Shown piece by piece: positions 18,453 to 25,963 of a stretch of DNA of 55,893 nt. Below the pieces are notes generated by a model. It was not told the origin of the DNA, did not search any database, and worked only from the letters and a program-made list of their open reading frames with translations. The translations under genes and the position numbers were made by a program. This stretch comes from an uncultured Erysipelothrix sp. GTDB taxonomy: Bacteria; Bacillota_I; Bacilli_A; Erysipelotrichales; Erysipelotrichaceae. The stretch spans positions 1-55,893 of the forward strand of contig CANRNG010000003.1 in NCBI GenBank assembly GCA_947631935.1, read 5' to 3'. Each line of letters opens with the position of its first letter. Position 1 is the first letter of the stretch.

Positions 18453-18492
18453 ATAAAAAAGCGATAACTTAATCTCAATTAAATCATCGCTT
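18453..18492 (-). terminator. Terminator of the opp operon
   Basis: AAGCGAT (18459-18465) pairs with ATCGCTT (18486-18492), extended by TTAA-type inner pairs, and is followed on the minus strand by TTTTTT. It lies 10 bases after the small membrane ORF, ending the opp transcript. Confidence 0.8.
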
Positions 18493-18686: not shown

Positions 18687-19625
18687 CTACTTCAATCGAC
18701 AAGCCACAAAGTGTTGATCGCCCACTTGGACCCAATCTCCATCAGCCTCATTGTTGTCTCTAAAGTTTTTAAAATCAAACTGATCGTTTTCAGATGAGAA
18801 TAAATCCTCTTCCATCTCTTTTTCACCCTTACGACGTGAAATGTCTGTTTTAAGGAAAGCAGCCATCAAACGTTTGGTATAAGGATGCGTAGCATTGTCA
18901 AAGATGGAAAGAATTGGACCTGACTCAACTATTTTACCGCGATGCATAACAATTACATCGTCTGCCATCTGAGAGATAACACCCAAATCATGGGTAATAA
19001 ACATAATTGATGTATTAAAATCAGATTTCAAATCATTCATCAACTTCAAAATTTCAGCTTGAATAATAACATCCAGTGCCGTTGTAGGCTCATCAGCAAT
19101 CAAAAGCTTAGGATTACATGCAAGTGCCATCGCAATCATAACACGTTGACTCATCCCACCTGACAATTGGTGAGGATATTGTTTCATCACCGCATCAGGA
19201 TTCGTAATTTTTACTGATATCAACATTTCTTTTGTTTTTTCACTGGCTTGTTTTTTATTCATGTCTTGGTGTAACATCAAGACTTCATTCATTTGACGTT
19301 CAACTGTAAACACAGGGTTTAAGGAAGTCATCGGTTCTTGGAAAATCATAGAAATTTCATTACCACGAATGTCTTGTATATCTTTTTCAGGAAGTTGATT
19401 TAAAACTTTTCCATCAAAGATAATTTCACCATCAGCAATACGTTGATTGTGTTCAAACAATTTCAAGATACTCATGGCAGTTTGAGATTTACCAGATCCA
19501 CTCTCACCTACAATACCCAGTGTGCGTCCTTGTTCAACTTCAAAAGAGATGCCATTTACAGCTTTAACAATACCCCTTCTTGTATCAAAGTAAGTATGCA
19601 AATTTTTTATTTCTAATAAACTCAT
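18687..19625 (-). CDS. oppD: Oligopeptide ABC transporter ATPase OppD
   Basis: This 312-residue cytoplasmic ATPase has Walker [11 protein letters not shown]-loop [11 protein letters not shown], signature LSGGMSQR, Walker [14 protein letters not shown] and switch His in FITHDLG. The TSLNP and GGMSQR forms are typical of OppD/DppD. The C-terminal region ends with [11 protein letters not shown], the short motif with a conserved Cys seen in peptide-importer ATPases. It hydrolyses ATP together with OppF to drive import through OppBC. It follows oppF by one base. Confidence 0.92.
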
Positions 19626-19626
19626 A

Positions 19627-21102
19627 TTACAACTCCTCTACAATTAACTCAGGGTTTTTTAGGTTACAAGCCACAAAGTGACCTGGACTGACTTCAAACC
19701 AATCTTTATCCACTTCGCCTGTTTCTTTATATCTAAAATCATAAAGATCATTTTCAACATAAAGTGGCAAGGGTTCAACCACTTGACCTGGACGATTCAT
19801 TTTAGGAATCGCATTCAATAACTCTCTTGTATAAGGATGTTGCGGATTGCTAAAGATTTCTTCAGCAGGCGCAAGTTCAACCAAATTACCAAAGTACATA
19901 ACACCAATTCTATCCGAAATATAACGCACGACTCCCAAGTCATGGGTAATAAAGAGATATGTTAGGTTGTGATCATCTTTTAAGTCTTGTAATAAGTTAA
20001 TAATTTGAGATTGAATCGATACATCAAGTGCACTTACAGCTTCATCACAAACCACAAATTTAGGGTTGAGCGCCAAGGCACGGGCAATTCCAATACGTTG
20101 ACGTTGTCCACCAGAGAATTGGTGAGGATAGCGGTGCATATACTCTGCATCCAAACCGCATTTCTCCATGATATCAATAATATAATCTTGATACTCTTGA
20201 GAATCTGTATCATCAAATAAACCATGGGCAATCAAACCTTCACCAATGATGTTACCAACTGTAAAACGTGGGTCAAGGGATGAATAAGGGTCTTGGAAAA
20301 TGATTTGTAAATCATTTCTCAAACGACGCATTTCATGTTTATTCAAAGCACTTAAATCAATACCTTCATCTTTTTGAGACTCAAACTCTTCAAAGCGAGG
20401 ATGGCTTGAAAGTTCCGCTTTAAAAGCATCAACTTCCGCAACAATTTCATCTCTAGCGATTTCCTTTTTCGCCAAGTCAGCTTTCATATCCATGATTTTC
20501 GAAGACTTGGAAACATCCTGTCCACGAATAATCAATTTATTTTCTTCAAATTCAATCTTTTTAAGAAGTGTAGCAACAGCAGAACCCTTTTCATATTTTT
20601 CAATCAAGAGTTTTTGAACTTTGTTTAAATCACTAGAAACTAAAAGTCCACCTGCAAGCCTTACAATATTTCCATATTTATTTTCAAAATTAATACGTGC
20701 CAAACGCAAAGCTTCCACTTTTGGATCTGTTGAATCGTCAAGCAAATCAACTTCGTCGATAAGATAATTTAGAACAGATAAATCTGCATCATATCCTACG
20801 AAATTCTTAGCAAGACCTCTATAAGTTTCACCCACATATTCAGGCATCATTTCTTCAATGGTATTTCCATAGTATAAACTGATTCCTGCTGTTTGTTCAT
20901 AAAGTTGGATGAGTGTTCTACCAAATGTAGATTTACCACATCCACTTTCACCAACGATACCCAAAGTTTCACCTTCATAAATATCTAGTGAGATGTCTTT
21001 ATTAGCACGAACATATTCAATCTCTTTTTGAAAAATGTTTTTCTTTTTTAAAGGGAAATATTTTTGTAGGTGTTCTACCTTTAATAATATTTTTTCAGAC
21101 AT
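19627..21102 (-). CDS. oppF: Oligopeptide ABC transporter ATPase OppF with internal insertion
   Basis: This protein has 491 residues against about 310-330 for normal OppF. Walker A GESGCGKST lies near residue 54. The usual Q-loop segment (DLQIIFQDPYSSLDPR) does not come until about residue 265, followed by signature FSGGQRQR, Walker B FVVCDEAVSALD and FITHDLG. About 150 extra residues, largely helical and charged, separate the Walker A helix from the Q-loop. The C-terminus has the same GHFVACNLK motif as OppD. Catalytic motifs are intact, so the insert probably adds a helical arm rather than breaking the ATPase. Confidence 0.9.
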   Translation of the reverse strand: MSEKILLKVEHLQKYFPLKKKNIFQKEIEYVRANKDISLDIYEGETLGIVGESGCGKSTFGRTLIQLYEQTAGISLYYGNTIEEMMPEYVGETYRGLAKNFVGYDADLSVLNYLIDEVDLLDDSTDPKVEALRLARINFENKYGNIVRLAGGLLVSSDLNKVQKLLIEKYEKGSAVATLLKKIEFEENKLIIRGQDVSKSSKIMDMKADLAKKEIARDEIVAEVDAFKAELSSHPRFEEFESQKDEGIDLSALNKHEMRRLRNDLQIIFQDPYSSLDPRFTVGNIIGEGLIAHGLFDDTDSQEYQDYIIDIMEKCGLDAEYMHRYPHQFSGGQRQRIGIARALALNPKFVVCDEAVSALDVSIQSQIINLLQDLKDDHNLTYLFITHDLGVVRYISDRIGVMYFGNLVELAPAEEIFSNPQHPYTRELLNAIPKMNRPGQVVEPLPLYVENDLYDFRYKETGEVDKDWFEVSPGHFVACNLKNPELIVEEL

Positions 21103-21119: not shown

Positions 21120-22967
21120 CTATTTTTGGTTTGAACGAGGGTCCATAGCATCCCTTAGCGCATCACCAATTAAGTTGACACTCAATGCTGCCAATAAAAC
21201 AGCACCTGCAGGCAAGAGCCATTGCCACCAATAGCGTTCAATAACAATGGAGTTAACAACACCATTTAACATATTTCCCCATGAAGGTGACGGTGATTTA
21301 ACACCAAATCCTAAGAAAGAAAGACCCGCTTCAGTGAGTAAACTTGAAGCATAACCCAATGTCATATTAACAATGATTAAGTTAAAGACAGAAGGTAAAA
21401 TATGTTTAATGATGATTGTAGATTCTTTTAATCCCAATGCTCGCGCAGCAAGCACAAAATCTTTTTCTCTTTCAGCCAAAATTTGACCACGAACCAATCG
21501 GGCAACACCCGGCCAAGAAATAACTCCCAGAACCACCATAATCATTAACAGTCTGGTATTTTGAGATGTATCAACCGGTAATAAAGCAGACAAAGTAATC
21601 GCCAATGGCATAAATGGAAAGGCCGAAATAACCTCTGCAAAACGCATAAGGAGATTGTCGATTATACCGCCATAGAAACCAGCAATTAATCCAACAGTAA
21701 CTCCGATGAATACAGAAATAATGATCGCAACGGCACCAATAATTAAGGATACACGACCACCATGAAGCAATCGAGTGGCAACATCACGGCCAAAGCCATC
21801 TGATCCAAGTCTAAATCCTTTTAGTCCCCAACCATTGACACTGCCATCTTCACTTACAGCAAAGGAATTATAGTAAGCACTAAAGATGTTGCTTACGTCG
21901 CTATTGTTTACTTTCGTAGGTACTTCTGTTAAACCATATTTTCCAGTACCCACTGAATGAACTGTGCCGTCTTCTGTTAAGAAGTTAAAAGATTTTAGTG
22001 TAGAGCTTATTTTAACAATCTTACTATCATATTGTGGTAAATCGCTCATACTTACCCCAGAAATACGTCCCCATCCATGTAAATTACCTTGGTCATCCAA
22101 AGCAATCACAGCCGTTTCTGAAGCCGTTACTTGCACAATATTGGTAGAACCGTCTTGGAGATGTTCAGGTAGGTTCGTATAAACTTCCGAACCACGAATA
22201 CCTGCTACCGCAACCGTACCATCATCTAAAATCAAGATTAGGTTAAATGGAGCCACTGCAAAATCAACAATTCTACCCTGATAGTCTCTAGAAATAGAAC
22301 TTAAGTTATTTGCATTTGTACTACCCCAAACATAAACGTTTCCATTTTCTGTGAGTACTAAAGAATAACTTGAATGGGCACCAATTTTTACAATTTTATC
22401 ACCCACAAGACGTTGTTTCACTTCACTTGGAAACTCGGATTGATTAAAGTTATTCCAACCCGCTCCAATAATATCACCCGTATTGGTTAATGCAATCACA
22501 TGTCTTGCACCTGAGGCAACAGAAACAATGTTTTTGCCTTCTGTTTTCTCTACAATTTCAGATGGATACATCATATGTCCAGGATCTTTACCCCAAAAGT
22601 ATAATTCGCCATCTTCATCCAATCCAACTGAGTAAGAAACACCTGTTGCAATTTCAACAGGGTTGTTTAATTTTTTACTTACTTTTAAGTAATTCATAGA
22701 AGGACCAATATTTTGCAGTGCTGTATCATGATCATACTCATTATAAGCAGGACCAACAGCTGTACCAACAAATACAACCGCAAAAATTAAAATAAATGTA
22801 ACAAGTCCAACAATTCCCATTTTATTTTCAAAAAAGTTACGTTTAATTTGCTGACTCGGACTTAATAAAGCATCATTATCGATTTCTTTATTTTTATTAG
22901 TGAACAGTCTGGCTATCATACTGGTAAAACTTTTACCTACGGAGGTTTTATTATTTTTTTCTTTCAT
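21120..22967 (-). CDS. oppC: Oligopeptide permease OppC with inserted RCC1-like beta-propeller
   Basis: This 615-residue protein is about twice the usual OppC length. Residues 1-80 hold a cytoplasmic tail and the first membrane helix. Residues about 95-375 contain seven RCC1-like repeats, each with a pattern like VGLDEDGELYFWG, VLTENGNVYVWG or ALDDQGNLHGWG. The sequence then returns to canonical OppC at RLGSDGFGRDVATRLLHGGR, followed by five membrane helices and the EAA-type loop with ARALGLKESTIIIKHILPS. By OppC topology the propeller lies outside the membrane, near the substrate-binding protein. It follows oppB by 14 bases. Confidence 0.92.
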   Translation of the reverse strand: MKEKNNKTSVGKSFTSMIARLFTNKNKEIDNDALLSPSQQIKRNFFENKMGIVGLVTFILIFAVVFVGTAVGPAYNEYDHDTALQNIGPSMNYLKVSKKLNNPVEIATGVSYSVGLDEDGELYFWGKDPGHMMYPSEIVEKTEGKNIVSVASGARHVIALTNTGDIIGAGWNNFNQSEFPSEVKQRLVGDKIVKIGAHSSYSLVLTENGNVYVWGSTNANNLSSISRDYQGRIVDFAVAPFNLILILDDGTVAVAGIRGSEVYTNLPEHLQDGSTNIVQVTASETAVIALDDQGNLHGWGRISGVSMSDLPQYDSKIVKISSTLKSFNFLTEDGTVHSVGTGKYGLTEVPTKVNNSDVSNIFSAYYNSFAVSEDGSVNGWGLKGFRLGSDGFGRDVATRLLHGGRVSLIIGAVAIIISVFIGVTVGLIAGFYGGIIDNLLMRFAEVISAFPFMPLAITLSALLPVDTSQNTRLLMIMVVLGVISWPGVARLVRGQILAEREKDFVLAARALGLKESTIIIKHILPSVFNLIIVNMTLGYASSLLTEAGLSFLGFGVKSPSPSWGNMLNGVVNSIVIERYWWQWLLPAGAVLLAALSVNLIGDALRDAMDPRSNQK

Positions 22968-22981
22968 ATATAAATTTCCTC

Positions 22982-23965
22982 CTAATCTAATTTAACGCGT
23001 GGATCAACTAACGCGTAACTTACGTCCATTAATATATTTGATACTAAAGATAAAATTGCATAGAACATGTTCATCGCAAGCACTAAGTTAAGGTCAGCTG
23101 AGTTAACTGCATCAATAAGTACTTTACCAATCCCATTCCAAGCAAAAATTTGTTCAGTAATTGCAGCGCCACCAAAAATTCCTGGTAAAGAACCGGCAAC
23201 AACTGTTACAACAGGGATTAAAGCGTTTCTAAAAGCATGTGAGTAAATCACAACTTTTTCATTCAAACCCTTAGCCCGTGCTGTTCGAATATAATCACTG
23301 CTTAACACCTCAAGCATCGCATTACGTACATAACGAATCATACCCGCAAAACTACCTAAGGTCAGCGTAATCAGTGGCAAAGTCATATATGGTAACAACG
23401 CCACATAATACTTCAAACTGCCATCATCAATCATTGAGGGCATCCCACCAATGGGAAGCCAATTTAACTTAATTGAAAAAACATATATGAGTAAAACCGA
23501 AATCAACAAAGTCGGCATAGAAACACCCACGATAGAAGTTACTTGCCATGACTTATCATAAAATGAACCTTGTTTCACTGCGGAACGAATTCCAACAACA
23601 ATAGAAACAACAAATGAGATTATAATTGACACTACGTTTATGACAACTGTATTTTTCATAGGTCTCGAAATAACATTCACTACCGGTTTATTATGGGATG
23701 TTGAATAACCAAGGTTTCCTGAAGCGGTCGTCGCTACCCAGCGAACATATTGCTCAGGTAAACTCTTATCAAGTCCCAATCGAACGTAAAGTTCATCATA
23801 GACTTTCTCATATTGTGCGGGATCTTTAATAGATGTCCCACTTCCCCCAAGCATTATTTTAACCGGATCACCAGGCATCATCTTTACAAATGAAAAAAGC
23901 ATTATTGAAATAATAATGATAACTGGTATCAGAGATAATAATCTTTTTATTAAATACTTAAACAT
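22982..23965 (-). CDS. oppB: Oligopeptide permease OppB
   Basis: This 327-residue permease has six membrane helices. It starts with the typical FKYLIKRLLSLIPV and MMPGDPVK segments, has the EAA loop TARAKGLNEKVVIYSHAFRNALIPV, and ends ILMDVSYALVDPRVKL. It forms the translocation pore with OppC. It has normal length and no insertion, in contrast to its partner. A GGGAGG site lies before its start, immediately after a strong hairpin. Confidence 0.94.
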   Translation of the reverse strand: MFKYLIKRLLSLIPVIIIISIMLFSFVKMMPGDPVKIMLGGSGTSIKDPAQYEKVYDELYVRLGLDKSLPEQYVRWVATTASGNLGYSTSHNKPVVNVISRPMKNTVVINVVSIIISFVVSIVVGIRSAVKQGSFYDKSWQVTSIVGVSMPTLLISVLLIYVFSIKLNWLPIGGMPSMIDDGSLKYYVALLPYMTLPLITLTLGSFAGMIRYVRNAMLEVLSSDYIRTARAKGLNEKVVIYSHAFRNALIPVVTVVAGSLPGIFGGAAITEQIFAWNGIGKVLIDAVNSADLNLVLAMNMFYAILSLVSNILMDVSYALVDPRVKLD

Positions 23966-24085: not shown

Positions 24086-25882
24086 TTAAGGATTGACAAT
24101 TCTCATGTATTCAATGTTTTGTGAGAAGTCAGAAAGTGTTGTAACTGTATCTTCGTATCCTGTTACACGTGCAGTCATAAAGTCGTGATATTCGTTAGAG
24201 TATAGTGGAATTTGTGGCAATAAGTCATTCCATACTTTTACATATTCAACGAAAGCATCAGCAAATTCATCACGTTGTGTACCCTCTAATTCACGCATAG
24301 TCATAATCCATTTGTCTAGTTCAGGATCAGCAATTTGTGAATTGTTATAACCTGGGTTATTAGCAAAATCAGAGTGTTCTGCATTGTAACGGTCATAGAC
24401 AGCTGTAAATCCTGTAGCCAAGTTCAAGATTGTATGATCAGAATCAGCAGTTCCATAAAGTACTTCTAGAAGTGCGGTAAATGGACCATCATCAACGATA
24501 TATTCCATACCAACTGCTTTAGCATTAACTGGTAATTGAGTTCTAAGAAGCTCAGTTACGGCATTGTTTTCACTACCGAAGTGTAGAACACGTAGTCTAT
24601 TTCCTTCAGCATCATGACGCCAGCCTTCGCCGTCCCATGGTGTAACACCATCTTCTTTATATTTGTATGGTGATGCATCAAGACGTGCATTGGCTTCATC
24701 TTCGTTATGTGTATATTGTGTAACTGATGATTCAATTTCTTCCTTACGATCTAGGAAGAACCATTGTGAAAGTCCATAAGGTCCGTCAACAGTGTTTGCG
24801 TATCCACCAGAAATTTCTTGCACGAATTCGTTACGGTCTAGTAAGAATGCGATAGCTTGACGCACTTCTTTATATTGTGTAGCACCTTTATTTGTCTTAA
24901 GAACAAGCATTCCGTAACCATTACGTGGGTACATATGCCATTTTAAGTTTTCATCAGCTTTAACTTCATCAATTGGGCCACCTTCAATAACACCCATAAC
25001 AACGTCTACTTCACCTTTTTTGAGTGAGTCAACTTGTTGTGCAGAGTTTACTTGACGCAATACAATAGTACCAATTTCAGCTTTAACACCTTCATGGTTA
25101 CCAACATATTTGTCATTCAATGTTAATGTAACAACGTTATCTTGGAAACTTACAAAGTTATAGGCTCCAGAAGTAACTTTTGGTCCATATTGAACTTCAT
25201 CTTGAACACGTTGCGCTGCAGCAGCAATCTCAGCTGAAGAGTTTGTAAATCCATTTCCATCAGCGTTAAATTCTCCTGTTGGGAACCAGTCATGCATTGG
25301 TTCTGGTGATGCAGCAACAAGTGAACGTTCGAAGAAGTAAGGCAACCAAACGTTTGAAATTGTTAGTGAGAATGTATAATCATCAACTAATTTTACACCT
25401 TCAAAGGCGCCACCATTTGTATTATATTCTTCCCAACCTACAAGTTCATAACCTGTAGAATCTTGTGGTGCGTTTGTTGTATGTTCAGCAGTCGCACGAT
25501 ATAAGATTGAAAAGACATAATCTTTAGCAGTGATCGGAGTGTCATCATTCCAAACTAAACCTTCTTTAATTGTAAAGGTATAAGTTTTATCACCAGCATC
25601 ATTTTCAACAACATCCATTTTTTCTAATACTGTTGGGTTTTCTTTATATTCACCAGTGTCACGGTCTACATAGAAAACACTATATGACCAAATCATGTTA
25701 CGAACCCAAACGTCGTATGAACTATTCGTCCAACCAGCGATAAATGCACCGGATTGATCTGACGGAACACCAATAGTAAGTGTTTCAGCACCTTGGTCTT
25801 CTACCAATGATGGACCTTTATTTCCACCACAAGCAGTAAGAGCCAATAATGCAACAACTACTAATACTAATAATTTTTTCAT
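24086..25882 (-). CDS. oppA: Oligopeptide-binding lipoprotein OppA
   Basis: This 598-residue extracellular solute-binding protein of family 5 starts with a lipoprotein signal peptide (MKKLLVLVVVALLALTACGG); Cys18 would be lipidated. The mature part shows the family's segments: YTFTIKEGLVWNDDTPITAKDYVFS, VVTLTLNDKY, VNSAQQVDSLKKGEVDVVMG and KEVRQAIAFLLDRNEF. It would capture peptides and deliver them to OppBC. It is the first gene of the operon, with a consensus promoter and a GGAGG site, and precedes oppB by 120 bases including a strong hairpin. Confidence 0.94.
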   Translation of the reverse strand: MKKLLVLVVVALLALTACGGNKGPSLVEDQGAETLTIGVPSDQSGAFIAGWTNSSYDVWVRNMIWSYSVFYVDRDTGEYKENPTVLEKMDVVENDAGDKTYTFTIKEGLVWNDDTPITAKDYVFSILYRATAEHTTNAPQDSTGYELVGWEEYNTNGGAFEGVKLVDDYTFSLTISNVWLPYFFERSLVAASPEPMHDWFPTGEFNADGNGFTNSSAEIAAAAQRVQDEVQYGPKVTSGAYNFVSFQDNVVTLTLNDKYVGNHEGVKAEIGTIVLRQVNSAQQVDSLKKGEVDVVMGVIEGGPIDEVKADENLKWHMYPRNGYGMLVLKTNKGATQYKEVRQAIAFLLDRNEFVQEISGGYANTVDGPYGLSQWFFLDRKEEIESSVTQYTHNEDEANARLDASPYKYKEDGVTPWDGEGWRHDAEGNRLRVLHFGSENNAVTELLRTQLPVNAKAVGMEYIVDDGPFTALLEVLYGTADSDHTILNLATGFTAVYDRYNAEHSDFANNPGYNNSQIADPELDKWIMTMRELEGTQRDEFADAFVEYVKVWNDLLPQIPLYSNEYHDFMTARVTGYEDTVTTLSDFSQNIEYMRIVNP

Positions 25883-25935: not shown

Positions 25936-25963
25936 ATTATATCTCAATGAAATTAATTGTCAA
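25936..25963 (-). promoter_or_regulatory. Consensus promoter of the opp operon
   Basis: Minus strand TTGACA (25958-25963), 16-base spacer, TATAAT (25936-25941). Both boxes match consensus exactly, implying high basal strength. Initiation would be near 25929, leaving a leader of about 45 bases before oppA. Confidence 0.9.

Follow-up and report, generated by a model that had tools for sequence, protein, structure and literature searches.

An oligopeptide permease OppC with an RCC1-type beta-propeller inserted in its outer loop in Erysipelotrichaceae

The window, a stretch of 55,893 nucleotides from an uncultured Erysipelothrix sp. (contig CANRNG010000003.1), contains a gene for an OppC-type oligopeptide permease, in whose outer loop a seven-bladed RCC1-type beta-propeller is inserted. 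This anatomy, a permease with a propeller in the outer loop, is regarded as practically certain. Among transporters of this known type, the propeller OppC constitutes a new variant with a wide distribution. It is encoded in an operon with the order oppA-oppB-oppC-oppF-oppD, whose products form a type I ABC importer for oligopeptides (OppABCFD). The following features were annotated for the operon:

25936..25963, minus strand: promoter-like TTGACA-16-TATAAT ahead of oppA, 12/12 consensus (consensus scan; function only predicted)
24086..25882, minus strand: oppA, family-5 substrate-binding lipoprotein of 598 aa (Pfam SBP_bac_5 4.7e-39, lipobox ...LTAC, subfamily alignment)
22982..23965, minus strand: oppB, ordinary permease partner of 327 aa without a large insert (Pfam BPD_transp_1, BPD_transp_1_N)
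21120..22967, minus strand: oppC, propeller-inserted permease (uninterrupted ORF, Pfam, AlphaFold2 model, structure match)
19627..21102, minus strand: oppF, ATPase of 491 aa whose Walker A and Q-loop are separated by a helical insert (Pfam ABC_tran, oligo_HPY; AlphaFold2)
18687..19625, minus strand: oppD, ATPase of 312 aa (Pfam ABC_tran)
18459..18492, minus strand: terminator-like hairpin after oppD, 15 pairs with a T tail (consensus scan)

The oppC gene is a single ORF of 615 aa, running on the minus strand from an ATG at 22967 to a stop codon at 21120. In the Pfam search, the domain order OppC_N, RCC1 repeats and BPD_transp_1 was found, with OppC_N at residues 36-81 (28.7 bits, cut-off 23.9), RCC1_2 in five stretches (89.2 bits, cut-off 22) and BPD_transp_1 at residues 422-611 (100 bits, cut-off 26.4). 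The RCC1-like domain model WD40_RLD matched with an E-value of 4.7e-36 and 125 bits, which is below its own cut-off of 150, and the top NCBIfam model was Opp4C (NF045476) with 299.9 bits, missing the equivalog cut-off of 350. Sequence matches in the PDB were divided in the same way, to OppC/DppC permeases for residues 384-612 and to the propellers of UVR8, HERC2 and RCC1 for residues of about 103-226. The assignment as an OppC-type oligopeptide permease is based on these domains, a six-helix fold with an EAA helix and the operon partners. Neither chance nor an assembly error can account for the gene, given the E-values and the identical architecture of OppCs from independent genomes, among them those of the isolate Dielma fastidiosa JC13 and of Erysipelothrix inopinata DSM 15511, the latter being complete.

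The structure of OppC was predicted with AlphaFold2 using 25 homologues (mean pLDDT of the whole chain 87.9, pTM 0.80). The propeller reached a pLDDT of about 94, with blocks mostly at 90-97, and the high pTM suggests that its placement relative to the permease is fairly certain, too. Within residues 105-381, DSSP assigned 21 strands in seven triplets, i.e., seven three-stranded blades. In structure comparisons (VIA-align), E. coli DppC (8z1w_B) aligned over its full length of 282 residues to residues 36-612 of the model (Z 31.0, rmsd 2.2) and 258 residues of BLIP-II (3qhy_B) to residues 90-373 (Z 30.9, rmsd 2.1). As modeled, this is a clean domain insertion that leaves the six-helix permease fold intact. 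With RCC1_2 above its cut-off and a closed seven-bladed fold in the predicted structure, the insert belongs to the RCC1/BLIP-II propellers. BLIP-II (3qhy, 1jtd), RCC1 and UVR8 share the seven-bladed RCC1-type propeller but are soluble proteins, whereas the propeller in the window is a domain inside an ABC permease. The E. coli permeases DppC and OppC (8z1w, 8z21; PMC12136057) share the complete permease fold and the operon partners; their TM1-TM2 loop is short, whereas that of the OppC in the window holds the propeller.

The insertion site was determined by comparison with plain OppCs of the same bacterial family, in which the loop after TM1 reads NIAPNSQH-LLGTDEQGRD, while the OppC in the window reads NIGPSMNY-[LKV ... 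WGLKGFR]-LGSDGFGRD. The insert therefore covers 293 aa, residues 94-386, of the TM1-TM2 loop. N86 and P89, strongly conserved OppC loop residues preceding the insert, are, on sequence grounds, part of the ancestral loop and not of the insert. The features relevant to site and membrane side are:

22755..22823, minus strand: OppC TM1, residues 49-71 (AlphaFold2 helix 49-71; hydropathy peak 50-68)
21810..22688, minus strand: RCC1/BLIP-II propeller insert, OppC residues 94-386 (comparison with plain OppC, AlphaFold2/DSSP strands, Pfam RCC1_2)
21432..21473, minus strand: EAA-type coupling motif EREKDFVLAARALG, OppC residues 499-512 (alignment, model helix 503-510)

The motif EREKDFVLAARALG is mostly invariant in the OppC alignment and forms helix 503-510 in the model; it is the contact to the cytoplasmic ATPases, which the coupling helix of OppC must face. 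In the model, TM1 (49-71) is followed by the propeller, three membrane helices and the EAA coupling helix. Since an odd number of crossings separates the insert from the cytoplasmic coupling helix, the propeller lies outside the cell, and the extracytoplasmic placement holds by the modeled helix count and by homology. A basic N-terminal tail of OppC and an acidic insert (21 K + R vs. 35 D + E) without cysteine agree with it. The preliminary description had proposed an RCC1-like propeller with seven blades, located after the first membrane helix and on the outer face, all of which is borne out by Pfam RCC1_2, the AlphaFold2 strands, the BLIP-II match and the topology; the insert is somewhat longer than the proposed length of about 280 residues.

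A search for the architecture across genomes showed that it recurs. Based on full-length matches, at least 50 genomes of the order, out of 294 sampled, encode a propeller OppC; all of them belong to the same family as the window, and this number is a lower bound as the best candidates alone were scored. Named carriers include Erysipelothrix inopinata, Dielma fastidiosa, three Anaerococcus genomes and Peloplasma aerotolerans; MAGs labeled Oscillospiraceae, Ruminococcus and Clostridia were found in addition. Two genomes of the window's genus have only plain OppC, beside a long-OppF pair. No relatives of the propeller OppC were found in the viral contigs searched, and no plasmid record covered at least 80% of the OppC query, the best of them matching the permease core only. 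Searches of the open-access literature yielded no description of an Opp or ABC permease bearing an RCC1 domain or propeller, most subscription papers and bioRxiv preprints being outside this coverage. The view that a propeller in an ABC importer permease is highly unusual thus stands with regard to published descriptions, but the architecture is not unique and is fixed in a whole OppC lineage. The closest reported parallel is AztD of AztABCD, likewise a beta-propeller, which works with the binding protein of an ABC importer; AztD is a separate eight-bladed zinc chaperone outside the permease, which binds zinc and hands it to AztC (PMC6689063). An AztD-type zinc chaperone (eight blades, two zinc sites, disulfide) was ruled out for OppC by the seven blades and the insert without cysteine.

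Several variants were observed among the carriers. In Anaerococcus, up to three consecutive oppA genes are located ahead of one propeller OppBCDF (L079, 206-6495). The MAG G223 has a second propeller Opp operon (L042/L083, G223:C53) that is closest to Peloplasma and whose OppF is split into two ORFs; this contig is possibly misbinned. Two class-level relatives have propeller OppCs of 756 aa (L186, 4197-6467) and 1144 aa (L185, 3857-7291), the latter with a long helical, coiled-coil-like stretch between blades. Furthermore, proteins of about 565-690 aa with an XRE-type HTH, one TM, an extracellular RCC1 propeller and further domains were detected in Erysipelotrichaceae (L216-L219, L221, L223, L229), which judging by their domains are possible membrane-bound regulators.

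Besides the operon in the window, the source genome assembly (1.56 Mb, 103 contigs) encodes a single other Opp system, which is located on other contigs and has a plain OppC; the family-5 binding proteins of the genome total two. The search for other RCC1 proteins in this genome returned only this oppC, so no propeller donor is visible there. Both Opp systems have a long OppF (window, 19627-21102, minus strand; L203, 12645-14117). The insert of the OppF in the window consists of four long helices (residues 97-230) with a pLDDT mostly at 80-97 in the AlphaFold2 model, and OppF reaches up to 711 aa in genome G478. A long OppF is present in nearly every complete propeller-carrier operon. A strict link between propeller and long OppF was rejected, since long OppFs also occur beside plain OppC, namely in the second Opp operon of the source genome, in two congeners and in the second system of one carrier contig (L084). 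A [4Fe-4S] motif is a known feature of DppD and DppF. OppD (18687-19625) and OppF (19627-21102) of the window have a single cysteine at the C-terminal end and, from their sequences, seem to have lost this motif, while the OppD/OppF of L185 and L186 retain a Cys-rich motif.

For the evolutionary history, a maximum-likelihood tree was calculated from the OppC permease core with the insert removed. All 58 propeller OppCs lie on one side of a single branch (SH-aLRT 88); their sister sequences are the plain OppCs of two Mollicutes/class relatives, and the propeller is kept in 58 of 58 clade members from several classes, with no loss seen. The sampled tree thus shows a single gain of the propeller in this OppC lineage, followed by inheritance together with the operon. 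Apart from one very long branch, the partner OppBs give the same picture in their own tree; this branch is a plain OppB inside the partner clade of the propeller OppCs (L114) and was discounted for its length. Anaerococcus falls inside the diversity of Erysipelotrichaceae, which suggests, from the tree topology, a transfer of the Opp operon.

These data bear on the possibility that the insert is near-neutral, tolerated in the loop and kept by chance or for stability alone. The two ends of the propeller are adjacent, which makes insertion easy, and in blades 3-6 conservation is poor in several loops. However, one gain with retention in every sampled descendant across several classes argues against it, as does the conservation of structural glycines, tryptophans and inter-blade prolines in the propeller, and only a low probability is assigned to it.

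Among 29 non-redundant sequences, the mean pairwise identity was 0.35 for the propeller vs. 0.60 for the core. The loops between the first and second strands are more conserved in blades 7, 1 and 2 than in blades 3-6, an asymmetry in the alignment that could mark an interface. After two outliers with expanded inserts were dropped, a mirror-tree test gave a weak correlation of propeller and OppA (partial r 0.20-0.23, p 0.06-0.02). For the cytoplasmic ATPases, which are out of the propeller's reach, the correlation with it was at least as strong, and the test did not discriminate between the partners.

The propeller may be a docking platform for OppA, a reading to which we give even chances. Of the three roles named in the preliminary description, namely docking of the binding lipoprotein, holding of peptides and contact with the cell surface, analogies (PMC11192437, PMC12136057) make OppA docking the most plausible. 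In this reading, the likeliest of those considered, the propeller would act as a fixed platform by which OppA, the lipoprotein, is caught or held at the permease during peptide release. The idea is modeled on the extracellular domains of pneumococcal AmiC, for which such a role is proposed, and on the P2 loop of MalF, for which it is known. P2 belongs to a maltose importer and differs from the OppC propeller in loop and fold. As a folded insert in the periplasm, it is part of a type I importer permease and moves around the binding protein (PMC8134467). AmiC, a subunit of an oligopeptide permease, likewise has a large insert outside the cell directly behind TM1 (ECD1/ECD2), and ECD2 is described as an additional platform for the binding protein; these domains are in an OppB-type subunit and not described as a propeller, and their docking is itself an AlphaFold prediction (PMC11192437). 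The holding of OppA is inferred from the location of the loop, the permease parts of DppABCDF and MalF, the repeated gain of domains and the protein binding by RCC1/BLIP-II propellers, some of which are established protein binders (PMC9218822). For AmiD, a subunit of the OppC type, a contact of the TM1-TM2 loop with lobe 2 of the binding protein is predicted (PMC11192437), and by site, helix count and homology to this loop the insert lies outside the membrane in the permease loop facing the binding protein. In E. coli, the TM1-TM2 periplasmic parts of DppB and DppC differ, and a scoop motif of DppB after TM1 contacts DppA (PMC12136057).

Further points for OppA docking are the retention in the whole clade and the independent enlargement of the same OppC loop by about 210 aa in another lineage. 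OppB was never enlarged in the operons of propeller carriers, and genome G111 of the window's genus has an enlarged OppB instead. This OppB is AmiC-like (494 aa, L202, 5333-6817) with a large extracellular part and stands beside a plain OppC. Against docking, the second Opp system of the source genome has a plain OppC, so the propeller is not needed for peptide import as such, and an OppA docked as in DppABCDF could leave the propeller free for another partner.

Such a partner might be a peptide or protein in free form, a peptidase, secreted or on the surface, that feeds the importer, or the surface of another cell. RCC1/BLIP-II propellers are versatile binders, and BLIP-II, the closest fold, is a secreted protein binder; sequence divergence is faster in the propeller than in the core, which might be expected of a domain facing a partner, and the HTH-TM-RCC1 proteins of the family carry propellers outside the membrane with no link to OppA. 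A partner other than OppA is nevertheless considered rather unlikely, as no gene beyond oppA, B, C, D and F is conserved in the operon and the insertion loop is predicted to face the binding protein (PMC11192437). It is improbable that the propeller acts as a lid or regulator which blocks or orders OppA docking, or limits the access of large peptides, rather than holding OppA: it is located on the mouth side of the permease with both ends tethered beside the conserved LG(S/T)D..GRD segment, but there is no genetic or regulatory hint and no switch-like gene in the operon. The binding of a cell-wall polymer, anchoring the transporter to the wall, would fit a propeller outside the membrane in Gram-positive relatives; as Peloplasma aerotolerans (Mycoplasmatota, a wall-less group) keeps the same domain, this role is very improbable, and the suggested contact with the cell surface is, as far as the wall is concerned, unlikely as a general role.

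In a separate OppC clade (L053-L066, 14 rows, SH-aLRT 99), the TM1-TM2 loop holds a different insert of about 210 residues, for which Pfam gave no match in the four sequences tested. This insert precedes the PSxEH motif, while the propeller is located on the other side of PSxEH. The OppC loop has therefore taken up unrelated domains at least twice. Tentatively, and with less than even confidence, the extracytoplasmic loop of OppC may be seen as an evolutionary slot in which unrelated domains were placed independently and recruit partners to the mouth of the importer. Examples would be the RCC1 propeller, the 210-residue domain and the elaborated propeller with a long helical stretch in the OppC of 1144 aa.

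Opp importers feed amino-acid-requiring Gram-positive bacteria and also import peptide signals and some antibiotics. How the binding lipoprotein stays at the permease is poorly understood beyond a few model systems. Whether permease loops are docking platforms could be tested directly with a permease that has a propeller of a protein-binding type built in, which is present in cultured isolates and accompanied in the same genome by an Opp system lacking the propeller. If the reading of the loop as a slot is true, the propeller lineage would be a new class of importers with a built-in receptor for the binding protein or for a peptide-supplying enzyme.
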